Positions 5,385-58,992 of a DNA stretch of 64,000 bases are shown here, one piece after another (the stretch's first letter is position 1; each line of letters starts with the position of its first letter). The position numbers were made by a program, and so were the translations under genes. The DNA comes from Castellaniella defragrans. GTDB taxonomy: Bacteria; Pseudomonadota; Gammaproteobacteria; Burkholderiales; Burkholderiaceae_B. The notes under the pieces were generated by a model. That model did not search any database. It was not told the origin of the DNA and saw only the letters and a program-made list of their open reading frames with translations. The DNA is taken from positions 1 through 64,000 of the forward strand of contig NZ_JACHIB010000016.1 of the NCBI RefSeq assembly GCF_014203015.1, read 5' to 3'.

Positions 5385-6332
5385 TCAGGCGAGCGGGCCC
5401 GCGTCGATGCCGTAGTGCGTCTGCAGCGCCGCCGCGACGTCGGTGCGCGACGGGCCATGGTTTTGCGGACCCCTGTGGGCGATTTTAAAGCTGCCCATGA
5501 CGTTCGCCAAGCAGCAGGCGTCGCGCAGGGACCAGCCGTGCGCCAGGCCGTACAGCAGGCCGGCGCGGTGCGCGTCGCCGCAGCCGGTCGGGTCCACGAT
5601 GCGGGCCGCGGGCGGGGCCGGAATGTCGGTGCGTTCCTCGCCCACGAACAGCGAGGCGCCCTCGCCGCCACGGGTCACCACCACCGCCTGCAGGCCGGCG
5701 GCGAGCGCCTGGATGGAGCGACCCGTGCGCTCCTCGATCACGCTGGCCTCGTAGTCGTTGGCGGTCAGGATGCTGGCCATGTCCAGCATGCGCAGCAGCT
5801 CGTCGCCGTCGAACAGCGGCATCGCCTGCCCCAGGTCGAAGATGAAGGGGATGCCCGCGGCCCGCAGGCGCTCGGCGTGGACGAACATGCCTTCCTTGGA
5901 ATCGGGCGAGACGATGGCCCAGCACGCGGCGTTGCCGCTCAGGTCGTTCTCGGCCGAACGCAGCATCGCCCCCGGGTGGAACGAGGCGATCTGGTTGTTT
6001 TCCTGGTCCGTGATGATGTGGCACTGCGCCGTGTAGGTGTCGGGCAGCACGCGCACCAGGCGGGTGTCGATGTCCAGCGCGCGCAGGCGCTGCAGGTAGT
6101 CGTCGGCATCCTGGCCCACGGTGCCGACGGGCACGGGCCGCCCGCCCAGCAGCTTCAGGCTGTAGGCGATGTTGCCGGCGCAGCCGCCGTATTCCTTGCG
6201 CAGCAGGGGCGCGAAGAACGACACGCTGAGGGACTTGATGTTGTCGGCCAGGATATGGTCGCGGAACCGGCCTTCAAACACGGCGATGGTGTCGAAGGCG
6301 ATGGAACCGCAGATCAGGACGTCCTTGGACAT
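5385..6332 (-). CDS. PfkB-family carbohydrate/nucleoside kinase (adenosine kinase-like)
   Basis: 315 residues of the ribokinase/PfkB superfamily, which phosphorylates a hydroxyl group of sugars or nucleosides with ATP. Visible motifs are the substrate-side GGCAGN (49-54) and the C-terminal DPTGCGD (247-253), the PfkB signature carrying the catalytic Asp253 and the anion hole. The overall pattern (NIKSLSVSFFAPLLRKEYGG and FHPGAM) is that annotated as adenosine kinase or carbohydrate kinase in related beta-proteobacteria. The exact substrate cannot be decided. It lies 15 bases downstream of the DUF3426 gene and is probably cotranscribed with it. Confidence 0.88.
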   Translation of the reverse strand: MSKDVLICGSIAFDTIAVFEGRFRDHILADNIKSLSVSFFAPLLRKEYGGCAGNIAYSLKLLGGRPVPVGTVGQDADDYLQRLRALDIDTRLVRVLPDTYTAQCHIITDQENNQIASFHPGAMLRSAENDLSGNAACWAIVSPDSKEGMFVHAERLRAAGIPFIFDLGQAMPLFDGDELLRMLDMASILTANDYEASVIEERTGRSIQALAAGLQAVVVTRGGEGASLFVGEERTDIPAPPAARIVDPTGCGDAHRAGLLYGLAHGWSLRDACCLANVMGSFKIAHRGPQNHGPSRTDVAAALQTHYGIDAGPLA

Positions 6333-6347
6333 GGCGGGGGAATTCCT

Positions 6348-7598
6348 TCAGGGATAGAAGAGGTCGAGCTGGTAGCCGTTGACGCGGACGCCGCTCACGG
6401 TCAGGGGGACGCGCACCAGGACTTCGCTGAGGGCGGCGAAGGGCTCGGCGGCGCGGGCGGCCCCCAGGTAGTCGGCGGGCGACAGGTTGCGGCGCACCAG
6501 CAGCGTGCCGGCGGCGTCCTTCAGGTCCAGGATCAGGGTCGGCCATTCCTGCGGCTGTTCGGCGCGGTTGCGCAGGGTGGCGTGCAGCACGAAATGCTGC
6601 TCGGCGGACGCCTGGCCGTCGGCCCCGCCTTCGGTCCGGCCGCCCTCGGCCCGCCCGGTCCCGGCGCGGCCGGCCGCGGCGCCGGCATCGGCCGCCTTGA
6701 GCGCGGAGCCGGTGATGGCGATGTGGGCGATGTCCCGCGCATAGGGCACCTGGCAGCGCAGCGGCACGCAGGCGCGTTCCAGCGCCGGCCGCAGCGCGGG
6801 CACCATCCGGGCGATCTGGGCACGGTAGACGTAGACGGCCTGCGCGGCCAGCAGGACGAGCAGCAGGATGAACAGCAGCCAGGCGCCGAAGCGCAGCAGC
6901 GCATCCCACCAGCCCGGGGCATCCTCGTCGCGCAGCAGGGGGGCGGCCGAGCCGCCCTGGCTGCGGTGCCCCGGCCGGGCCTCGACCACGAAGGGCGCCT
7001 CCTGGGGAGGCGGCTCGGCCCGGCCGAAGACCGGCGCGGCGCCGGCATCGGGCACCCAGCCCTCGTCGGCCAGGATTTCCTCGACCGGCCGCGGCGCCGG
7101 CCCGCCCGCCGCCTGGCCGAGACGGGGCTCGGGGCGGTCGTCGGGCCAGGGCGCGACGCCGATGCGGAACACCGGCGCCGGCTCGGACTGGGGCCGCCCC
7201 GCCACCGGGCGGCCGGAGCGGATCACCTGGGGCGGCGGCTCGGCCGCGGGCCCGGCGGGCCCGGCCGATGCGGCCGATGCGGTGAAGGACGGAGAGGCGG
7301 CGTAAGGCGCGGAAGGAACGGAGGGCGCGGACGGAGCGGGCGGGGCGGCAGAAGCGGGCGGAACGAAGGGGACGGATGATGCGAACGGGGCGGAGGGCGC
7401 GGACGGCGCTTGGGCGGCGGCCGGGCGCGGCGCCGCCGGGGACGCCGGCGTCTCGGACGCATCGGAGACCACCTCGGCATAGCCGTCGAAGATATGGGCG
7501 CACTGCACGCAGCGGATGTAGCCCTTGCGCAGCTGCAGGTCGGACAGGCCCGCCTGGAACACGGTCCCGCATTTCGGGCAGCGCGTGGTCAGGTCCAT
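6348..7598 (-). CDS. Zinc-ribbon plus DUF3426 single-pass membrane protein
   Basis: 416 residues in three parts. The N-terminal MJ0042-type zinc ribbon has Cys7, Cys10, Cys30 and Cys33. A long Pro/Ala/Ser-rich low-complexity linker spans about 50-225. A single transmembrane helix (about 231-253) is followed by a DUF3426 domain at the C-terminus, ending YQLDLFYP. The topology suggests a cytoplasmic zinc ribbon and a periplasmic DUF3426 domain. Function is unknown; the family is conserved next to prmA in beta-proteobacteria. The start at 7598 is chosen because the zinc ribbon begins immediately. Confidence 0.88.
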   Translation of the reverse strand: MDLTTRCPKCGTVFQAGLSDLQLRKGYIRCVQCAHIFDGYAEVVSDASETPASPAAPRPAAAQAPSAPSAPFASSVPFVPPASAAPPAPSAPSVPSAPYAASPSFTASAASAGPAGPAAEPPPQVIRSGRPVAGRPQSEPAPVFRIGVAPWPDDRPEPRLGQAAGGPAPRPVEEILADEGWVPDAGAAPVFGRAEPPPQEAPFVVEARPGHRSQGGSAAPLLRDEDAPGWWDALLRFGAWLLFILLLVLLAAQAVYVYRAQIARMVPALRPALERACVPLRCQVPYARDIAHIAITGSALKAADAGAAAGRAGTGRAEGGRTEGGADGQASAEQHFVLHATLRNRAEQPQEWPTLILDLKDAAGTLLVRRNLSPADYLGAARAAEPFAALSEVLVRVPLTVSGVRVNGYQLDLFYP

Positions 7599-7612
7599 CG
7601 CCACGGCGCCCT

Positions 7613-8527
7613 TCAGTCCCTGCGCCCCGTCAGGCAGACCCAGCCGTCGCGGGCCGCCCAGACGTGCAGGGGCAGGTGCGGCGCGTAGGCCTGGCAGACC
7701 TCGTCGGCCTGGCGCTCCAGCACGCCGGAGAGCGCCAGCCGCCCACCGGGGGCGACCCGCGCCGCCAGCATGGGTGCCAGGAGCTTGAGCGGATTGGAGA
7801 GGATGTTGGCGACCACCACCTGGCTGGCGCCGGCGGGCAGATCGTCGGGCAGGCAGGCCTGGACGTCCACGCGGTTGGCGGCCGCGTTGCGGGCCGTGGC
7901 CAGCACCGCCTGTTCGTCGATGTCCACGCCCCGGGTCGGGCCGGCGCCCAGCAGGCGCGCGGCGATCGCCAGGATGCCGGAGCCGCAGCCGTAGTCCAGC
8001 ACGGTCTCGCCGCCCTGCAGATGGGCCGCGAGCCATTCCAGGCACAGGTGCGTGGTGGGGTGGCTGCCGGTGCCGAAGGCCAGGCCCGGGTCGAGCTCGA
8101 TGCGCACGATGCCGTCCCGGGCGCCGGCCGCGGGCAGGCCGGCATCGTCGCGGTGCCAGCTCGGCACGATCCAGATGCGCTCGCTCACGACGATGGGGCC
8201 GAACTGGGACTGCGTCAGGCGCACCCAGTCGGCGTCCGGCACGTCGCGCAGGCGCCAGTCGCCCGCCCCCGGCGCGGGCCCGGCCAGGCCGTCCAGCGCG
8301 GCCAGCAGGTGGGCGGGATCGTCGCCGTCGGCCAGCAGGGCCACCAGGCGGTTGCGCCGCCAGGCGAGGACCTCGGGCTCCGTGCCCGGCTCGCCGAACA
8401 GCGCCCGTTCGTGCTCGGTGTCGCCGTCGGCGTCCTCGACGGACACCGCCAGGGCGCCGGCTTCCAGCAGGGCGTCGGACCAGGCCTCGGCCTGGCTTTC
8501 CGCGCAGTTCAGCACCAGCTCTCGCAT
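7613..8527 (-). CDS. prmA: Ribosomal protein L11 methyltransferase
   Basis: 304 residues. PrmA trimethylates ribosomal protein L11 using S-adenosylmethionine. The SAM-binding motif [14 protein letters not shown] lies in the C-terminal Rossmann half and is followed by the conserved NILSNPL (usual form NI-L-[AS]-NPL). The N-terminal third is the L11-recognition domain. The length matches the family. It lies between accC (8 bases upstream) and the DUF3426 gene, a common beta-proteobacterial arrangement. Confidence 0.95.
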
Positions 8528-8535
8528 GCCGGACC

Positions 8536-9882
8536 TCAGGCGCGCGCGGCGAGCTTCTGTTCGAGGTAGTGGATGCTGGTGCCGCCTTCGACGAATCGGG
8601 CGTCCTGCATCAGCTCGCGGTGCAGCGGGATATTGGTCTGCACCCCCTCGACGATCATTTCCGACAGGGCGATGTCCATGCGCATGATCGCCTGGTGGCG
8701 GTCGTCGCCATAGGTGATGAGCTTGGCGATCATCGAGTCGTAGTAGGGCGGCACGGTGTAGCCGGTGAACACGTGCGAATCCATGCGCACGCCCGGGCCG
8801 CCCGGCGTGTGCCAGTTGGTGATCCTGCCGGGGCTGGGCGTGAACTTGTACGGGTCCTCGGCGTTGATCCGGCATTCGATCGCATGGCCGCGCAGGTGGA
8901 CGTCGCGCTGGCGCAGGGTGAATTTCTCGCCGGCGGCGATGCGCAGCTGCTGCTGGACCAGGTCGATGCCGGTGATCATCTCGGTGATCGTGTGCTCGAC
9001 CTGGATGCGGGTGTTCATCTCGATGAAGAAGAATTCGCCGTTCTCGTAGAGGAATTCAAAGGTGCCGGCGCCACGGTAGCGCATCTGGCGGCAGGCCTCG
9101 GCGCAGCGTTCGCCGATGCGCTCGACCAGGGCGCGCCCGATGCCCGGGGCGGGCGCCTCTTCGATGATCTTCTGGTGGCGGCGCTGCATGGAGCAGTCGC
9201 GCTCGCCCAGCCAGACGGCCTTGCCCTCGCCGTCGGCCAGCACCTGGATCTCGATGTGGCGCGGGTTTTCCAGGAATTTTTCGAGGTAGACCTCGGGATT
9301 GTTGAAGGCGGCGCCGGCCTCGGTGCGCGTCATGGCCACCGCGTTGAGCAGGGCCGCCTCGGTGTAGACCACCCGCATGCCGCGCCCGCCGCCGCCGCCC
9401 GCGGCCTTGATGATGACCGGATAGCCGACCTCGGCGGCGATGCGCTGGATTTCCCTGGGGTCGTCGGGCAGCGCGCCGCCCGAACCCGGCACGACCGGCA
9501 CGCCGGCGGCGATCATCGCCTGCTTGGCGCTGACCTTGTCGCCCATGGTGCGGATGCTCTCGGGACGCGGTCCGATGAAGACGAAGCCGCTCTTTTCCAC
9601 GCGCTCGGCGAAATCGGCGTTTTCCGACAGGAAGCCGTAGCCGGGGTGGATGGCCTCGGCGTCGGTGACTTCGGCGGCCGAGATCAGCGCCGGCATGTTC
9701 AGATAGCTGTCGCGCGGCGTGGCCGGCCCGATGCAGACGGATTCGTCGGCCAGGCGCACGTATTTGGCATCGCGGTCGGCCTCGGAGTGCACGACCACGG
9801 TCTTGACGCCCAGCTCGCGGCAGGCGCGCAGGACCCGCAGGGCGATTTCGCCGCGATTGGCGATCAGGATTTTTTCAAACAT
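8536..9882 (-). CDS. accC: Biotin carboxylase subunit of acetyl-CoA carboxylase
   Basis: 448 residues. Carboxylates the biotin carried by AccB using ATP and bicarbonate, the first half-reaction of malonyl-CoA formation in fatty acid synthesis. It has the biotin-carboxylase N-domain ([14 protein letters not shown]), an ATP-grasp with the glycine-rich loop AGGGGGRGM, and the catalytic segments [19 protein letters not shown] and [15 protein letters not shown]. The start is set by the standard N-terminus and lies 5 bases after the accB stop, so the two genes are translated from one mRNA. Confidence 0.98.
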
Positions 9883-9887
9883 GGCGC

Positions 9888-10340
9888 TCAGGCGATGATG
9901 AACAGGGGCTGGCCATATTCGACCGGTTCGCCGTTCTCGACGAGGATTTCCTTGATGACGCCGGACTTGTCGGCCTCGATCTCGTTGAGCAGCTTCATCG
10001 CCTCGATGATGCACAGGGGATCGCCTTCCTTGACGGCCTGGCCGACCTCGACGAAGGCCGCGGCATTCGGATTGGGCGAACGGTAGAAGGTGCCGACCAT
10101 CGGCGCCTTGACCTGATGGCCCTGCGGAGCGGCGGGCGCCGGGGCGGCGGCCGGCGCGGGGGCGGCCGCGGGCGCGGCCACGACCTGGGCCGGCGCGGCG
10201 GCCACGGCCACCGGGGCGCCCGCGGCGGGCTGGGCGAACTTGACGATGCGGACCTTGCCCTCGCCCTCGGTGATTTCCAGTTCGGCGATACCCGAATCGG
10301 CCACCAGGTCGATCAGCGTTTTCAGTTTTCGGAGATCCAT
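9888..10340 (-). CDS. accB: Biotin carboxyl carrier protein of acetyl-CoA carboxylase
   Basis: 150 residues. The N-terminal segment [18 protein letters not shown] is followed by an Ala/Pro-rich flexible linker (about 38-77) and the C-terminal biotinyl domain. The biotin acceptor is Lys116 in EAMKL. It shuttles carboxybiotin between AccC and the carboxyltransferase AccAD. First gene of the accB-accC-prmA-DUF3426-kinase run. Confidence 0.98.
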
Positions 10341-10621
10341 GACGATAAATTCCTGTGTGCTGGCCCATACGGGGGGCGGGCCGTTCGATGGTCGGATCCG
10401 GGCGGCGAAAACAAATGCGCCGTCGGTCCGACCCCGGCGATGCGGGGAGAATCCACGACGGCCACATGTGTTGCTGCTGCCAGCGGGCAGCCCAGGACTC
10501 CTGCCCGAAGCCGCCTGATCCTGGGTATGAGGGTACCCTTCAAAGCGCCTTTTTACGCTAAAACCGCCGATTTGTCCATAAAAACAGCCCTGCGAGGGGC
10601 CGGAACGCTAATTATTGAAAC
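10341..10621. other. Intergenic region between the tlpA-like gene and accB
   Basis: 281 bases with no credible gene. It should hold the accB promoter on the minus strand. I see AT-rich patches around 10550-10580, but no -35/-10 pair I would defend. In many Burkholderiales aroQ occupies this position; no remnant of it is recognisable. Confidence 0.5.
10579..10601 (-). terminator. Possible terminator after the tlpA-like gene
   Basis: On the minus strand a GC stem with one bulge (GCCCCT against AGGGC, 3-base loop) is followed by GTTTTT. It lies about 20 bases past the stop codon of the tlpA-like gene. Confidence 0.4.
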
Positions 10622-11140
10622 TTAAAGTATCTGCCCCAGCCGGACCTCGATGTCGTCCGGCCTGAGTTCGCCCATGACCGAATCGGCGACGCGGCCGCGG
10701 CGGTCGAACAGCAGGGTGAACGGCAGGCCGCCGCCCTTGTTGCCCAGCTCGCGCATCAGCGGGATGCCCTGGGTGCCGGTGAGCAGCAAGGGATAGGACA
10801 CCTGCACCTTTTTCAGGAAGCGCTCGACGTTGGCCTGGGTGTCGATGGCCAGCCCGAGCACGGCCAGGTCGGGATGGCGCTGGTGCAGGGTTTCGAGCAG
10901 GGGCATCTCGCGCACGCAGGGCGCGCACCAGCTGGCCCAGAAATTCATCAGCACCGGCCGGCCCACATAGGCCGACAGGGCCTGGTCGCGGCCCTGCAGA
11001 TCGGCGAAGGTGCGGCCGAACACCGGATCGGCCGGCAGCATCGAGGCCGCCGCGCCGCGCGCGCCCGCCGCGAGCCCGAGCGTTGCCAGGGAAACCGCGT
11101 GCAAGAATTTCCGCCTGTCCATGTAGGGAACATGCTCCAT
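10622..11140 (-). CDS. TlpA-like periplasmic thioredoxin-fold protein
   Basis: 172 residues. The N-terminus has a twin-arginine-like signal (DRRKFLHAVSLATLGLAAG), so export to the periplasm is likely. The thioredoxin-fold domain carries the redox motif WCAPC (Trp71-Cys75) in FWASWCAPCVREMP, and a cis-Pro region in GGGLPFTLLFDRRG. Proteins of this AhpC/TSA-Redoxin type act as thiol-disulphide reductases, for example in cytochrome c maturation. The specific client is unknown. An alternative start at 11122 (MDRRKF) would put the signal peptide directly at the N-terminus and is equally plausible. Confidence 0.88.
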   Translation of the reverse strand: MEHVPYMDRRKFLHAVSLATLGLAAGARGAAASMLPADPVFGRTFADLQGRDQALSAYVGRPVLMNFWASWCAPCVREMPLLETLHQRHPDLAVLGLAIDTQANVERFLKKVQVSYPLLLTGTQGIPLMRELGNKGGGLPFTLLFDRRGRVADSVMGELRPDDIEVRLGQIL

Positions 11141-11330
11141 GCTGTCCGTCCGTCCCGCGGCCCGCAGGCCGCCCGGATTCGTCAGGCGCGCCAGGGTCCG
11201 CAGGGACCCAGGCGCGTCCGGCCTCGTCCATCATAGCATCGGGCCGCGGCGCGGGCCGGTCCGGGCGGCGGCGGCCCGCAAAGCGGAAGCCCCGGCCCGC
11301 GCACCCTTACAATACAGGCCGGAGGATACG

Positions 11331-17542: not shown

Positions 17543-18396
17543 CGCTTGCGTCCGTGTCCGAAGCATCCCCGGCGGCCGACGCCCCCGGGGGCGACGTCTG
17601 GGTCATCGGCGACGTGCAGGGCTGCGCGGGCGCGCTGCGCGCCCTGCTGGCCCATCCCGAGCTCGCCCGCCCCGACACCGAGCTGTGGTTCGCCGGAGAC
17701 CTGGTCAACCGCGGCCCCGATTCCCTGGGGGCGCTGCGCCTGATCCGCGCGCTGGGCGCCCGCGCCCGCCCCATCCTGGGCAACCACGACCTGCACCTGC
17801 TGGCCGTGGTGGCCGGAGTGCGCCCGCCGGGCAGGTCCGACACGATCCAGGACGTCCTGGACGCGCCCGACGCCGCCGAACTGATCGACTGGTTGCGCCA
17901 CCTGCCGCTGCTGGTGCGCGACCGCGGACACGTCATGGTGCACGCCGGCATCCTGCCCGCCTGGACCCTGGAGCAGGCCCAGGCCCTGGCCGGCGAGATC
18001 GAAACCGCGCTGCGCCGGCCCGACTGGCACCCCGCCCTGCACGACCTGTACGGCGAGGAGCCCCTGCAATGGGACGACGCCCTGCGCGGGCCGGACCGCA
18101 TGCGGGTGATCGTCAACGCCCTGACCCGCATGCGGGTCTGCCATGCCGACGGCCGCATGGACTTCCACCACAAGGGCGAACCCCACGCCACGCCGGGGAT
18201 GATGCCCTGGTTCGAGCTGCCCGGACGGCGCGACCCCGCCGTGCCGGTGATCTTCGGCCACTGGTCCGCCCTGGGGCTGCACATCCGTCCCGACGCGATC
18301 TGCCTGGATACCGGCTGCGTCTGGGGGCGTGCGCTGACCGCATTGCGGCTGCGCGACCACCGCATCATCCAGCAGGACTGCGCCGCCTGCCGCTGA
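17539..18396 (+). CDS. apaH: Symmetrical bis(5'-nucleosyl)-tetraphosphatase
   Basis: 285 residues. Hydrolyses Ap4A to two ADP. It has the metallophosphoesterase motifs GDVQGC, GDLVNRGPDS and GNHDLHLLAV, and the late GHWSALG and LDTGCVWG blocks of ApaH. A 16-residue N-terminal extension precedes the usual start at about VWVIGDVQG. It overlaps the lptG stop (ATGA), so it is translationally coupled, and it is convergent with the acyltransferase gene. Confidence 0.95.
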   Translation: MTLASVSEASPAADAPGGDVWVIGDVQGCAGALRALLAHPELARPDTELWFAGDLVNRGPDSLGALRLIRALGARARPILGNHDLHLLAVVAGVRPPGRSDTIQDVLDAPDAAELIDWLRHLPLLVRDRGHVMVHAGILPAWTLEQAQALAGEIETALRRPDWHPALHDLYGEEPLQWDDALRGPDRMRVIVNALTRMRVCHADGRMDFHHKGEPHATPGMMPWFELPGRRDPAVPVIFGHWSALGLHIRPDAICLDTGCVWGRALTALRLRDHRIIQQDCAACR

Positions 18397-18468
18397 GGCC
18401 GCGCGCGGCCCCGCCCGGCCGTGCAGCGGCCGCGATCCCCCCATGGATTCCCGCCGGGACCGGCGCGC

Positions 18469-19242
18469 TCACTCGCCGCGCACGGCCGCGCGGATGGCGG
18501 CATGCGCGCGGCGCGCCAGTTCGCCCCGCACCGGAGCGTCCTGCGGCGGGATCGGCGCCAGGAAGACGCATTCGACCGTCACGCCCCGGGCCCCGAGCAG
18601 GAACCACAGGTTCGCCACCAGGGTCTGTTCGCCGACGAAGGCCAGTTCCGGCGCCCGCCGGCCGCGCTTGAGGAAGCGCAGGGCCACCGGCTGCGTCGGC
18701 ACGCCGGCCCGCACGGCGGCGTCGAACAGGCCCGCGTGGAAGGGCAGCACGTCCGCGCCGTCCGTGGTCGTGCCTTCGGGGAACAGCCCGACGGCCTCGC
18801 CCCGCTCGAAACAGGCGCGCATCTGGCGGCCGGCGGTGCGCACCGCGTGCCGGGAGCGCCGGTCGATGAACAGCGTGCCCGCCCAGGCCACCAGCAGGCC
18901 GATCACCGGCCAGCGCCGGATGTCGCTCTTGGCGACGAAGGACGTGGTGCGCACGCCGTTGAGCACGAAGATGTCCACCCACGAGACGTGATTGGCCACC
19001 CACAGGACGGCGCCCCGTTTCACGGGCTCGCCCAGGCGGCGCACGCGGACCCCGCACAGCCATAGCAGTCCCCGCGACCACGCGCCCACGACCTGGCGCC
19101 GCCGGCGGCGGCTCAGGGCCGGAAACACCACCAGTTCGGTCGCCAGGCCCAGCAGGACCCAGACCGACACGCAGACGAAACGCAACAGGAACAGAAACGG
19201 CGCCACCGGCATCCTCCGCCCCGAACGGGCAATGGCGCTCAT
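18469..19242 (-). CDS. 1-acyl-sn-glycerol-3-phosphate acyltransferase (PlsC-like)
   Basis: 257 residues with this start. An N-terminal membrane helix (FLFLLRFVCVSVWVLLGLA) precedes a PlsC domain. The catalytic HX4D box is seen in NHVSWVDIF, acceptor binding in FPEGTTTDG, and the LFIDRRSR block is conserved. It should acylate lysophosphatidic acid or a related lyso-lipid at the inner membrane. Start choice is uncertain: ATGs at 19245, 19242 and 19212 are in frame. The last has GGAGG directly abutting it, which is too close to be ideal. Confidence 0.9.
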   Translation of the reverse strand: MSAIARSGRRMPVAPFLFLLRFVCVSVWVLLGLATELVVFPALSRRRRRQVVGAWSRGLLWLCGVRVRRLGEPVKRGAVLWVANHVSWVDIFVLNGVRTTSFVAKSDIRRWPVIGLLVAWAGTLFIDRRSRHAVRTAGRQMRACFERGEAVGLFPEGTTTDGADVLPFHAGLFDAAVRAGVPTQPVALRFLKRGRRAPELAFVGEQTLVANLWFLLGARGVTVECVFLAPIPPQDAPVRGELARRAHAAIRAAVRGE

Positions 19243-19300
19243 CATACCCGGGCGGGCGGCCTGGCCGCCGGGCGCGGGCGGGGGCTGGTCCGATCCGGCC

Positions 19301-19849
19301 TCACCGTGGACCGGCGGCGCCCGCACGCGCCGGGTCGTCGAGGTAGCGCTGCAGGATCACGGCGGCGGCCATGGCGTCGTCCGGCGCGCGGCTGCCCAGG
19401 AGCTGCTGGGCCTCCAGGCTGGAGCCGCGCTCGTCCACCAGCACCACGCGCACGCGGAAGCGTCCTTCGATCTGGTGCGCGAAGCGGCGGCTGTGCTGCG
19501 AGGCGGGCTGTTCGCCGCCATCCAGGGTGAGGGGCAGCCCCACGATCACGCGATCGGGCTGCCATTCGGCCAGCAGGGCGCCGACCTGGGCGAAACGCTG
19601 CGCGCGCGTGGCGGGCGTCAGGATGCACAGCGGGCGGGCATGGTTCGTCAGGGTGTTGCCCAGCGCCACGCCGATTTTCTTCAGGCCGAAATCGAAGGCC
19701 AGCAGCGTCTGCTCGGATGGGAGCGCTTCGGCCCGAGGGCCGGAGCCGCTCCGCCCCTGGGCGGGGGTGGCTTCGGCACCGGACAGACAGGGCCTCGCTC
19801 GATCCTGCCCGGAAGGGCAAGGCTCGCGCTGCGGCACGGGGTCAGGCAT
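19301..19849 (-). CDS. ruvX: Putative pre-16S rRNA nuclease RuvX/YqgF
   Basis: 182 residues. The RNase H-like YqgF fold is seen from about residue 50: LAFDFGLKKIGVALGN (first catalytic Asp), VGLPLTLDGGEQ, VVLVDERGSS (Glu) and DDAMAAAVILQRYL (Asp pair). It is thought to finish 16S rRNA 5'-end processing. It carries a 45-residue Pro/Arg/Ser-rich N-terminal extension absent from the usual family length of about 135-140. The start is kept because the ATG overlaps the yqgE stop by 8 bases, a normal coupling for this pair. Confidence 0.9.
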   Translation of the reverse strand: MPDPVPQREPCPSGQDRARPCLSGAEATPAQGRSGSGPRAEALPSEQTLLAFDFGLKKIGVALGNTLTNHARPLCILTPATRAQRFAQVGALLAEWQPDRVIVGLPLTLDGGEQPASQHSRRFAHQIEGRFRVRVVLVDERGSSLEAQQLLGSRAPDDAMAAAVILQRYLDDPARAGAAGPR

Positions 19850-54689: not shown

Positions 54690-55481
54690 GTGCTGCGCAT
54701 CACCTCCCTGAACGTCAACGGCATCCGCTCGGCCTTCCGCAAGGGGCTGGCCGACTGGCTCGCCGACGCCCGCCCCGACATCGTCTGCCTGCAGGAAATC
54801 AAGATCCAGGACGGCGACCTGGCCGAGGACGTGCGCCATCCCGACGGCCTGACCGGGCACTTCCACCACGCCGAGAAAAAGGGCTACAGCGGCGTGGGCC
54901 TCTACCTGCGCCAGCCGGCCGACGCCATCACCGCGGGCATGGGCTGCCCCGAATTCGACGCCGAAGGCCGCATCCTGCGCGCAGACTGGCCCGGCCTGAC
55001 CGTCGTCAGCGCCTACCTGCCCTCGGGCTCCAGCGGCGACGAACGCCAGGCCGCCAAATACCGCTTCCTCGACCACTTCGAGGCCTGGCTGGACGGGCTG
55101 ATGCAGGAACACCGCGACACCGGCCGCGAATTCATCATCTGCGGCGACTGGAACATCGCCCACAAGGAAATCGACCTGAAGAACTGGAAAGGCAACCTGA
55201 AGAACAGCGGCTTCCTGCCCGAAGAGCGCGCCTGGCTGAGCAAGATCTTCGACGAACACGGCTGGGTGGACGTCTACCGCCGCCTGCACCCGGACGCCAC
55301 CGGCGAGGCCTACACCTGGTGGAGCAACCGCGGCCAGGCCTGGGCCAAGAACGTCGGCTGGCGCATCGACTACCACATCGCCACCCCCGGCATCGCCGCG
55401 CGTGCGCGCGCCGCCTCCATCCACCGCGAACCCCGGTTCAGCGACCACGCGCCTCTGACGATCGATTACGATTGGTCATAA
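54690..55481 (+). CDS. xth: Exodeoxyribonuclease III
   Basis: 263 residues. AP endonuclease and 3'-5' exonuclease of base-excision repair. Motifs: [23 protein letters not shown] (catalytic Glu), [23 protein letters not shown] and RFSDHAPL (catalytic His). Start is GTG at 54690, fixed by the family N-terminus; no clear Shine-Dalgarno. Confidence 0.96.
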
Positions 55482-55584
55482 AAGCGCGGCCTAAAGAAAG
55501 TACACTCGACGTCGTAGAAGAGAGCAGATCCGTTTTTCGCCGCCCGCCTCACCGCGTGAAGGCCGCATTTTTACAGGAGTTCCC

Positions 55585-55788
55585 ATGTCCGATTCCATCG
55601 AAGGCACCGTCGCCGCGGCGACCGGCCTGCAAAACTGGAACATGATGCAGGAAAAAGACAACCTGCTGCTGCGCAAGGTCCTGGACGGCCAGGCCAACAC
55701 CATCCTCAGCCTGGTCAACTCGGTGCCCTCGGTCCCGCAACTGGCAAACGGCGGCATGGTGGGCACGCTGCTGCACACGACCGCCTGA
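55585..55788 (+). CDS. YjfB-like small protein (putative motility protein family)
   Basis: 67 residues. The pattern LLRKVLDGQANTILSLVNSV, followed by a Pro-rich turn (VPSVPQL) and a Gly/Thr C-terminus (GTLLHTTA), matches the YjfB family (about 60-70 residues), whose members are often annotated as putative motility proteins without a known activity. AGGAG precedes the ATG. It is followed at once by a strong terminator. No flagellar gene is adjacent. Confidence 0.7.
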   Translation: MSDSIEGTVAAATGLQNWNMMQEKDNLLLRKVLDGQANTILSLVNSVPSVPQLANGGMVGTLLHTTA

Positions 55789-55810
55789 CGAAAGCTTTTC
55801 TCCGTGGATT

Positions 55811-55836
55811 GGGGCCTGGGTTTCCAGGCCCTTTTT
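55811..55836 (+). terminator. Intrinsic terminator after the YjfB-like gene
   Basis: GGGCCTGG at 55812-55819 pairs with CCAGGCCC at 55824-55831, loop GTTT, followed by TTTTT. It marks the left edge of the AT-rich island. Confidence 0.92.
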
Positions 55837-56201
55837 CGTGGGTGGTTGGGGTGGCTCGATCATTGCACAGACTGCTTTCGGCCAGGAACAGTCAGATGTA
55901 CTGGACATGGTGGCGAGGATTGATGCCAACCTTCGTCCGCGTTAATCGCAACCAAATCAGACCACCATGATCAAGGGAACTTCGGACATGATGTAAACAA
56001 CCCACCCATTTTTTCGTAGCAGGCCCATTCCAGCTCCATCTGGCAGACGTCTGTTTACAGGTAGTGTTATCCACACCTGGTATATTTGAACGAACCAGCA
56101 GATGCCGGCTTACAGGCAGACCCTACGGATACTGCAGCTCCAGCACAATATCAGCCTTCTAGTACAACTAACCGTCGCGCCCTTAAATACAGAGCAACTT
56201 A
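55837..56201. other. AT-rich intergenic stretch upstream of the ATPase gene
   Basis: 365 bases with no gene and clearly lower GC than the surrounding chromosome. It contains the palindrome CAGACGTCTG at 56044-56053, a single consensus DnaA box TTATCCACA at 56067-56075, a TATATT (56081-56086) that could be a -10, and two copies of TTACAGGYAG (56055-56064 and 56110-56119). No Shine-Dalgarno is clear before the ATG at 56202. Confidence 0.6.
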
Positions 56202-57722
56202 ATGAACACACTCACAAAACTTGAATTACCGAAGCGTTGGGAATTGCTGGAACAAAGAGCGCAGGCAGCCGGGCTTGACGCTGGTCTCTTTGTTGAGCGA
56301 GTCGATAGTGCGGCAGATCGCATCGATTACCTTCTGCAACGCGTGAAAACCGGCGGTGGAGGTCTATTTGAAGTGTTCTATGGCCTGTCCGGCAGTGGCA
56401 AGACAACTTTTCTCAAAACACTCCCCAAACAGTTTCAGCAGATTCGAGTCTCGTCTTTTCCGAAGGACATGGACTTAAGCACGCTTCCAACGTTCATTCA
56501 CGATACGTACGTTCCGGGGGACACGAGTGCCCGAGTCATCTTGATCGAGCGCCGAGACAATCCATCGCAGCGAGATATACAGAACCTTAGTGAAACCTTC
56601 GCGGAACTGCTCGAGGTATTTCGTGATCCCAAAGGGGCTGCACTTGTCCTCTGGCCCGTTACTCGTGAGCCTTCTGCACATAAAATCGCGGAGGAGGCTT
56701 GGACGACCGGACGCGATTCCATGGCCGACACTCGCTCTAGAGGTTTCTATAACTTCACCGGACTCCCAAAAGAGCGCTTCTATGCAGTCGCAGACACCAC
56801 CACCCGAAATTTAACCGGAGACGGCCTCGAAACCTTTGGCGTCACGCCTGAAGTAGCGAACGATCTATTGGCTGAAGCTCAAACTATTGCAGATTTCTTC
56901 AACGCCGTCGATCTCTATGCCGAAATGCAGCGAGAAAAAACCTGGTCGATTCTCAAGACAAAGGTACGGGCTCGCCTTTGGGTTGTACTGCCGGGCGACG
57001 TTCCTTCTGCAATCCGCTCTACCGTTTTGTCACTAACTCAGGGTTCGCGAAATAGAGTAGACATTGAGTTGGTGGCAGAGTTTATTGATCAGCCTGACGA
57101 GAAGGCACCCATATATGTTGCCGATTGGAAGGCAAGACGTTCCGCGATGGCACACATTCTTAGGGCAATTGACTTGCGGCTATTCGAATTACCGCCGAAT
57201 GTCTCCCTCGCGGCCGTCCGCGCATATGGTGAGGCCTCCGTCAAGGAAAAGCTTAAACAGCCCGCAGCCAAACTTGAAGATGCTAAGACTGCTATGCGCA
57301 ATAGCAAACTTTACAAAGAGATTGAAGCGGAACTTGGTATTAACAAAACACCGTTCGCTGGCGCTAGTCGGGACGTAGAGGAAACGTCAAATGAGTATCG
57401 TCGGATACAAGCAGTTGCATCCAAAGGCGACAAGTCTTTGAATAAAGCTATCGGACTTCTGCTTTCTGAGTGCCTGAAAGAAGATGCCCCGACAGTCAAG
57501 GTTGTGAGCGAAAAGCAATCACTTCCGAACTGCGACCTGAAGCCTGATGTTTGTCTGCACATTAATGACCTAGACTACATCTGCATCGAACCAACATGGC
57601 GTTCGACGGATAAGGGCATTCCAGGAGAACTGGACGGCGGGCAAAACACCCTGGCTGCTTCACATATGAAGAAATATCTTCTGGACAAGGCAATGCAGTA
57701 CATCAAGGCTCTTGGCATTTGA
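56202..57722 (+). CDS. P-loop ATPase with PD-(D/E)XK-like C-terminus, unknown function
   Basis: 506 residues, single gene in an AT-rich island (codon use unlike its neighbours). Seen: Walker A GLSGSGKT (61-68) preceded by a beta-strand FEVFY; a Walker B-like strand RVILIERRD (111-119); a second hydrophobic strand AALVLWPVT (about 146-154) of the P-loop core; a helical middle (340-440, Lys/Glu-rich). Near the C-terminus, KPDV (447-450) and then YICIEPTWRST (459-469) give PD(x)13E-x-T, which resembles the PD-(D/E)XK nuclease core with Thr in place of Lys. A Lys/Tyr-rich helix KKYLLDKAMQYIKAL ends it. P-loop assignment is secure; nuclease assignment is inference. No family name is recognised, and no partner gene is next to it. 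Confidence 0.8.
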   Translation: MNTLTKLELPKRWELLEQRAQAAGLDAGLFVERVDSAADRIDYLLQRVKTGGGGLFEVFYGLSGSGKTTFLKTLPKQFQQIRVSSFPKDMDLSTLPTFIHDTYVPGDTSARVILIERRDNPSQRDIQNLSETFAELLEVFRDPKGAALVLWPVTREPSAHKIAEEAWTTGRDSMADTRSRGFYNFTGLPKERFYAVADTTTRNLTGDGLETFGVTPEVANDLLAEAQTIADFFNAVDLYAEMQREKTWSILKTKVRARLWVVLPGDVPSAIRSTVLSLTQGSRNRVDIELVAEFIDQPDEKAPIYVADWKARRSAMAHILRAIDLRLFELPPNVSLAAVRAYGEASVKEKLKQPAAKLEDAKTAMRNSKLYKEIEAELGINKTPFAGASRDVEETSNEYRRIQAVASKGDKSLNKAIGLLLSECLKEDAPTVKVVSEKQSLPNCDLKPDVCLHINDLDYICIEPTWRSTDKGIPGELDGGQNTLAASHMKKYLLDKAMQYIKALGI

Positions 57723-57842
57723 GCAAACTTCGATGCGTAATCGTAAGCCCCCTCTGAGTAGACACCAGCCAGTAGAGTTTCGAAATCTCCCGGAGGATTG
57801 CCGTGCGTTATATCAATAACCCAGCATCCACTACCGTCAGCC
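57719..57842 (-). pseudogene. Possible gene remnant downstream of the ATPase gene
   Basis: The minus strand across this stretch reads as about 40 residues of protein-like sequence (WVIDITHGNPPGDFETLLAG, then YSEGAYDYASKFAQ) with no start or stop of its own. It may be the decayed end of a gene, or chance. The GC content is intermediate between the island and the host. No function is suggested. Confidence 0.3.
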
Positions 57843-57849
57843 CGACGCT

Positions 57850-57952
57850 CCCGCACCCCGACGGGGCCTGTTGGAGGGGCGGGAAGCCGTAGGCCGAGGG
57901 CGCACGCGACCTGCGTCCGAGCCGCACCGACCAGGCCCCGTCGGGGTGCGGG
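57850..57952. terminator. Large inverted repeat between the island and the BASS transporter gene
   Basis: Perfect 21-bp arms at 57850-57870 and 57932-57952, both reading CCCGCACCCCGACGGGGCCT and its complement, with a 61-base centre. It lies 26 bases past the BASS stop codon and could end its transcript; it also marks the right edge of the island. Confidence 0.8.
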
Positions 57953-57978
57953 GGCGGCGGGCGGGTTAAAAACCCAAA

Positions 57979-58992
57979 TCAAGCAGCGGCACGACGCCGC
58001 CCGGAACCCTGATCCTGCTGCCCCGCCCGCAAATAATGCTGCGCCAGTACCGCGCACACCATCAGCTGGATCTGGTGGAAGATCATCAGCGGCAGCAGCA
58101 CCGGCCCGATGGCGCCCGCGCTGAACAGCACGCCGGCCATCGGCACGCCGGTGGCCATGCTCTTCTTCGAGCCGCAGAATACGATCGTGATCTCGTCCGC
58201 CCGGTTGAAGCCCATGCGCCGCGCCGACCACGTATTGAGCACCAGCACCAGCGCCAGCAGCCCGCAGCAGGCCACCACCAGCCAGGCCAGCGACACCGTA
58301 TCCACCGTCTGCCACAGCCCGCCGATCACCGACTCGCTGAAGGCCGTGTAGACCACCAGCAGGATCGAGCTCTGGTCCACGCTGGTGACGAGCTTGCGGT
58401 GACCGTCCATCCAGCGGCCGATCACCGGCCGCATCAGGTGGCCGGCGACGAAAGGCAGGAAGATCTGCACGCTGATGCGGCCGATCGCCTGCAGCAGCGA
58501 ACTGCCGCCCAGGGCGGACGTGTCCGCGCCCAGAAACAACTGCAGCAGCAGGGGAGTGATGACGATGCCGACGATGCTGGAAGCAGAGGCCGCGCAGACC
58601 GCCGCGGGCACGTTGCCGCGCGCGATGGATGTGAAGGCGATGGCCGACTGGACCGTGCCGGGCAGCACCGTCAGGTAGACGATGCCCACGTAGAGCGGCT
58701 CGCCCAGCAGCGGCAGAAGAACCGGCCGAAGCACCCACCCCAGGATGGGGAAAATCACGAATGTCCAGATGAAGATCACGCCGTGCAGCCGCCAGTGCGT
58801 GGCGCCTGCGATGATGGCCTCGCGGGATAGCTTGGCCCCATGCAGGAAGAACAGCAACGCGATGGCTGCAGCCGTGAGCCGTTCAAAGAACACCGCGCCC
58901 TGGCCGTGGGCCGGCAAGACCGTGGCGGCCGTGACGACCGCGATCAGGATCAGGGTGAAACGATCGAACAGCAGACGTAATTTCGACATCAT
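57979..58992 (-). CDS. Bile acid:sodium symporter (BASS) family transporter
   Basis: 337 residues, about ten TM helices (for example LILIAVVTAATVLPA, AAIALLFFLHGAKLS). The SBF-like fold (PSEP7-type) has the conserved LTVLPGTVQSAIAFTSIARGN and the TM4b/9b-type breaks VFCGSKKSMATGVPMAG. Substrate unknown; related proteins export or import organic anions or coenzyme A precursors. ATGs at 58992 and 58989 are both possible. Divergent from the AraC regulator gene, which may regulate it. Confidence 0.92.
   Translation of the reverse strand: MMSKLRLLFDRFTLILIAVVTAATVLPAHGQGAVFFERLTAAAIALLFFLHGAKLSREAIIAGATHWRLHGVIFIWTFVIFPILGWVLRPVLLPLLGEPLYVGIVYLTVLPGTVQSAIAFTSIARGNVPAAVCAASASSIVGIVITPLLLQLFLGADTSALGGSSLLQAIGRISVQIFLPFVAGHLMRPVIGRWMDGHRKLVTSVDQSSILLVVYTAFSESVIGGLWQTVDTVSLAWLVVACCGLLALVLVLNTWSARRMGFNRADEITIVFCGSKKSMATGVPMAGVLFSAGAIGPVLLPLMIFHQIQLMVCAVLAQHYLRAGQQDQGSGRRRAAA

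Follow-up and report, generated by a model that had tools for sequence, protein, structure and literature searches.

The gene and its insertion site

The window (the whole stretch of DNA that was analysed, 64,000 nt) contains one gene whose composition sets it apart from its surroundings. This ORF at 56202..57722 (+ strand) has an ATG start and encodes a protein of 506 aa, with a predicted AAA+ ATPase domain followed by a PD-(D/E)XK-like C-terminal domain; it has relatives in other genomes and is under purifying selection. Its GC content is 50.6%, compared to 69.3% for the window. When stretches of 1,521 nt were sampled across the window, those with the lowest GC were at the gene, about 4.5 standard deviations below the mean (69.4%, SD 4.2%). 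The first-pass annotation had reported a 506-residue gene of clearly low GC here, and both the ORF and its composition agree with that description.

The inserted DNA is longer than the gene. In an alignment with the sister genome G114, homology of the flanks ends at 55854 and picks up again at 57835, which leaves a cassette of 1,980 bp (approximately 55855–57834, 50.4% GC) containing the 1,521-nt gene and 347 bp upstream of it. The left flanking core gene (55585..55788, + strand) encodes a small protein of 67 aa and has an orthologue in the corresponding position of G112, G113, G114, G116 and G117. A Pfam search with this protein gave no match; it presumably resembles the YjfB-type motility proteins. 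An intrinsic terminator of this gene, GGGGCCTGGGTTTCCAGGCCCTTTTTCG, lies at 55811..55837 (+ strand), and the insert starts ca. 20 bp past it. The right flanking core gene (57979..58992, − strand) encodes a symporter-like membrane protein, which we take to be of the bile-acid:sodium symporter type. The symporter gene and an xthA-type gene on the left side are both present in all 10 genomes of the genus.

On the right, an inverted repeat at 57840..57962 has 31-nt arms (94% identity) with 61 nt between them. This repeat is single copy in the genome, which rules out a dispersed element, and it also adjoins the different cassette of G114; it may act as a terminator or mark a junction. The window contains no tRNA gene, and a search of the region 55400–58100 for RNA families gave no match.

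A genome search showed that the gene is absent from all nine congeners. Just 0.4 kb or so separates the xthA-type gene from the symporter gene in G116 and G117. The G114 genome has a different insert at identical junctions, of 2,003 bp and 48.7% GC. The main gene of that insert (L054:2548–3876, 442 aa, 48.5% GC) had no match in a Pfam search and matches HEC-07 of PADLOC (E=2.4e-22); HEC-07, like PDC-S33 below, is a PADLOC candidate label. The same interval contains a GGDEF-type gene in G119 and a lipoprotein-like ORF in G113. Because the contents differ between G114, G119, G113 and G116/G117, the gap between the 67-aa gene and the symporter gene is a variable site at which low-GC cassettes alternate in the genus. 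As such it is marked as a putative swap point for defence-type cassettes. Two earlier expectations, that the gene is isolated low-GC cargo between core genes and that its presence at the locus is patchy among relatives, were borne out by the junctions and by its absence from the congeners.

Relatives of the gene

Nine relatives were found, with 19–73% identity, in Beta-, Gamma- and Alphaproteobacteria, on phage contigs and on Nostoc plasmids. The closest are those of Candidimonas humi (73%), which belongs to the same family as the host, and Pseudomonas khazarica (72%), followed by an alphaproteobacterial MAG (58%) and Xanthobacter sp. (53%). The copy in Fulvimarina endophytica (L019:3193–4727, 59% identity in the best segment) is broken by a frameshift and is decaying. 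More distant relatives are encoded on two IMG/VR contigs, L025 and L026 (40% and 36%), in G842, a genome of the same order as the host (24%), and on Nostoc plasmids (19%, two near-identical copies counted as one). Each of these was retrieved with a genome search or a profile scan, while scanning the genome and viral collections with a single sequence retrieved no relatives.

The gene is rare. It is present in 2 of 268 genomes in the family of the host, 2 of 399 in its order, and 1 of 151 in the family of G842, and none of 50,697 phage records matched it. Among the weak matches from the wide genome scans, those that were inspected proved to be ABC transporter ATPases, an aminopeptidase-type protein and, among the 399 genomes of the order, two ABC exporters; these were dismissed.

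In all nine relatives the GC content of the gene is below that of its flanks. The Pseudomonas and Candidimonas copies are 89% identical, with dN of 0.05–0.07 and dS of 0.8–1.0 in each of three regions (dN/dS ca. 0.05–0.09). Since the ratio is low in all three, the ATPase, the middle region and the tail are all maintained, each under purifying selection.

The protein had no family match above the cut-off in Pfam, NCBIfam, PADLOC or PHROGs, where the weak matches were to the P-loop, in keeping with the first-pass annotation, which had recognised no named family. No system protein of PADLOC 2.0 was matched, apart from Walker A-sized matches to mad3 (E=0.008) and VakA (0.03). In PHROGs, ‘DNA transposition protein’ and ‘Sak4-like’ were matched weakly and over the Walker A region only, and a sequence search of the PDB gave nothing beyond P-loop matches.

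AAA+ ATPase domain and middle region

An AlphaFold2 model built from eight sequences had a mean pLDDT of 85.6 and a pTM of 0.69 (an earlier two-sequence model, with a mean pLDDT of 37.9, was unusable). Residues 1–253 (56202..56960, + strand), where pLDDT is mostly above 80, are predicted to form an AAA+ ATPase domain similar to those of Orc/Cdc6 and RFC. A Foldseek search with the whole model matched Orc/Cdc6, RFC, RuvB, FtsH and p97, matches that were driven by the AAA+ part. The Walker A motif is GLSGSGKT at 61–68, and its glycines and the GKTTF segment are invariant in the eight-sequence alignment. The Walker-B-like strand, placed at 110–121, is predicted in the model at 110–115 and is followed by ERRDNP, with an acidic residue at 116 or 117. 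A sensor-1-like residue, T154 (Asn in Nostoc), comes after a strand at 148–153. The motifs assigned are Walker A, Walker B and sensor 1, with no arginine finger or sensor-2 residue. The Walker A motif and Walker-B-like strand noticed in the first-pass annotation are both present in sequence and model; its ‘ATPase/GTPase’ is better described as AAA+.

The middle region or linker, residues 254–410 (56961..57431, + strand), is modelled as one alpha-beta segment followed by helices, with low confidence at 294–309. Conserved residues in this region are W309, R312, R313 and D324.

Predicted C-terminal PD-(D/E)XK-like domain

The last 96 residues (411–506; 57432..57719, + strand) were delimited as a PD-(D/E)XK-like domain from the model and the eight-sequence alignments. 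They are modelled as a helix (411–428), three strands (433–435, 450–455 and 458–464) and a second helix (486–504). This alpha-beta-beta-beta-alpha order is that of the PD-(D/E)XK core minus its last strand, since the fourth core strand is not predicted. P448 and D449 lie directly before the second strand and E463 lies on the third, so that the alignment has both acidic residues where PD-(D/E)XK proteins have them, one before strand 2 and a D/E on strand 3.

Residues that are invariant in this part of the eight-sequence alignment A5 are L441, L446, P448, D449, C461, E463, T465, W466, R467, Y492, L494, K496 and Y500, which include the patterns C461-x-E463-x-T465-W466-R467 and Y492-x-L494-x-K496-xxx-Y500. 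P448, D449, E463 and T465, which the first-pass annotation had singled out in a single sequence, are thus all among the few invariant columns (59 of 506 in eight sequences, down to 24% identity), so that the motifs are not due to chance. Conservation by itself is no proof of a nuclease.

The motif-III lysine expected two positions after E463 is a threonine in the eight members and a histidine in Nostoc. The Nostoc member also has VD for PD and an ExHHK shifted by one, and keeps K496. R467, which is a lysine in Nostoc, or K496 may substitute for the motif-III lysine, and permuted active-site residues have been documented in the PD-(D/E)XK superfamily, for example in PfoI (PMC6344858).

Pfam searches with the full-length protein and with its C-terminus gave no nuclease match. 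An hhalign comparison of the C-terminal profile to two DUF4143 nucleases and a SEC-C protein encoded beside one relative gave no signal and is weakly informative because the targets were single sequences. The putative nuclease assignment rests on predicted topology and conserved residues. The first-pass annotation had proposed a degenerate PD-(D/E)XK core from PD at 448–449 and E-x-T at 463–465 in a strand. The residues (E-P-T for the latter) and their place on a strand were confirmed, and the predicted topology and conserved acidic residues are consistent with such a core, while neither the fold nor the profile comparisons matched it to a nuclease and threonine stands in the place of the motif-III lysine.

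Comparison with known systems

Single-gene proteins that join an ATPase to a PD-(D/E)XK domain are a known kind, represented by AAA_14/DUF4143, archaeal ATPase_2/DUF234 and AAA-ATPase_like/PDDEXK_9. The family described here matches none of these, and its motif III is altered. AAA_14/DUF4143 and ATPase_2/DUF234 proteins share its plan of one gene, 400–500 aa, with an Orc/STAND-like AAA+ domain first and PD-(D/E)XK last, yet the protein has no match above the cut-off to their profiles. The host genome encodes one DUF4143 protein elsewhere. In hhalign comparisons with DUF4143 proteins the Walker A region alone aligns; they have the canonical DLI...ExK, whereas the protein in the window has D...ExTWR and a helix lysine. 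AAA-ATPase_like/PDDEXK_9 (PF09820/PF08011) proteins also have, in one gene and a similar total length, an ATPase and then PD-(D/E)XK, but the protein has no Pfam match.

Resemblance to other defence systems is more general. OLD-family nucleases, GajA and PARIS AriA/AriB also couple an ATPase to a nuclease-type effector and occur in prophage and satellite hotspots (PMC9122126), but they combine ABC/SMC-type ATPases with TOPRIM, whereas the model of this protein has AAA+ and a PD-(D/E)XK-type strand topology. Avs/STAND nuclease sensors, which are carried in P4/P2 hotspots (PMC9122126), join an AAA+-related NTPase to a nuclease-type domain; they differ in having an N-terminal nuclease and large C-terminal repeat sensors, neither of which is found here. 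McrBC couples an AAA+ protein to a PD-(D/E)XK nuclease, but with two genes, a GTP-specific McrB and an N-terminal modified-base reader, while in the window there is one gene with no partner and no recognised reader domain.

Genomic neighbourhoods of the relatives

Each relative has different neighbours, and there is no partner gene conserved among the nine. No conservation is seen in the 450 bp upstream, even between copies that are 72–89% identical; the gene therefore travels alone, with no co-travelling part.

Several relatives are associated with phages or prophages. In the IMG/VR prophage L025 the relative is in a cargo zone (5801–11289) with tail genes on one side and an integrase on the other, in the order baseplate/tail genes, Dam-type methylase, a gene with no Pfam match, the relative, a weak HEPN match, a protein that we read as GIY-YIG-like, and the integrase. 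Defence systems are known to reside in small cargo loci with a conserved phage gene on either side (PMC9122126). The IMG/VR phage contig L026 has a terminase gene as well as the relative. The Pseudomonas relative is at a prophage edge, with prophage tail and endolysin genes on one side and cinA-recA on the other.

Other relatives are found on plasmids, near transposases or among core genes. On the Nostoc commune plasmid (L027:5893–8429) the relative is followed by a gene for a RelA/SpoT-domain protein that matches the PADLOC candidate PDC-S33 (E=5e-128), possibly forming a two-gene unit with it; on the other Nostoc plasmid (L028) a different gene is annotated next in line. The Fulvimarina endophytica copy comes after a DNA cytosine methylase gene and has an IS transposase on the other side. 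In Xanthobacter, the alphaproteobacterial MAG and G842 the relative stands alone among core genes. Close to mutS and an IS3-type transposase, the Candidimonas humi relative has the gene of a DUF6414 protein on one side and that of a SEC-C protein on the other. These two neighbours (L007:14190–15116 and 17626–19500), of which the SEC-C protein has a possible D...EAK nuclease motif, may represent an unrecognised cargo cluster near mutS.

The first-pass annotation had asked whether homologues are enriched next to known defence genes. Relatives are near defence candidates and prophages; at none of the loci does a classical multi-system defence island adjoin. As the family is rare, its apparent association with defence rests on a handful of neighbourhoods. 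Low GC also marks the defence hotspots of Pseudomonas (PMC10250203).

Proposed function

We consider it moderately probable that the gene product is an ATPase-nuclease effector that acts as a single protein in defence against phages or other mobile elements. The earlier suggestion of an undescribed anti-phage or anti-plasmid effector gains from the relatives in prophage cargo, on a phage contig, at a prophage edge and beside PDC-S33, and from HEC-07 at the same site in G114; the active nuclease that it implies was not supported by any match.

Such a gene would spread horizontally as solitary cargo. The AAA+ domain would bind ATP and would probably respond to some feature of the invading DNA or of the replication of that DNA, either by assembling on it or by being switched by it. 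Once triggered, it would release the C-terminal domain to cut nucleic acid, under ATP control, the target being either that of the invader or, upon infection, that of the host. Cleavage would use D449 and E463 for metal, together with T465 and R467 of the same strand; K496, in the final helix, might stand in for the missing lysine. Since no methylase, antitoxin or any other partner is conserved with it, the protein would be off by default and would have to be restrained by its ATPase or middle region before the trigger.

A defence or inter-element conflict protein could also have a C-terminal domain of PD-(D/E)XK-like fold that has lost its catalytic activity and only binds nucleic acid or protein, with the AAA+ domain remodelling or blocking its target. 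This is unlikely, although the threonine in place of the motif-III lysine, the further departure of the Nostoc member from the motif and the lack of a Pfam nuclease match are all in its favour. D449, E463, T465, R467 and K496 are invariant down to 24% identity in a domain that is under purifying selection, which resembles an active centre more than a relic, and permuted active sites such as that of PfoI (PMC6344858) exist in the superfamily.

We think it less likely still that this is an unremarkable accessory gene, niche-adaptive or orphan, with a role such as DNA repair or stress response, which occupies variable sites by chance. The unrelated genes at the site in G113 (lipoprotein-like) and G119 (GGDEF) fit this explanation, while the very patchy distribution across classes and phyla, the low GC in every host, the prophage cargo positions and the defence-candidate neighbours argue against it. 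An accessory ATPase of a mobile element, for transposition targeting or for replication or recombination and with no defence role, is very improbable: the weak PHROG matches and the copies on prophages and plasmids would suit it, but no integrase or transposase is alongside in the window, Xanthobacter, the MAG or G842, and a core phage or transposon role predicts more phage copies than the zero found in the phage records.

The defence effector reading has a more specific and more tentative form, which may hold but to which we give somewhat less than an even chance. The proteins would make up a new family of defence enzymes that act on their own: an AAA+ domain of Orc/Cdc6 type would directly sense incoming DNA, or the replication of that DNA, and would drive a PD-(D/E)XK-like nuclease with a rebuilt site (D...ExTWR...K, with the lysine on the last helix), the whole being carried between phyla as a one-gene cassette. 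If active, it would be a minimal system of one protein and no partner genes, with a nuclease centre that dispenses with the customary lysine. At the Pseudomonas cDHS1 site, 87% of genes have no known immune role (PMC10250203). One gene of this kind now has a family, an architecture, residues to mutate and natural hosts.
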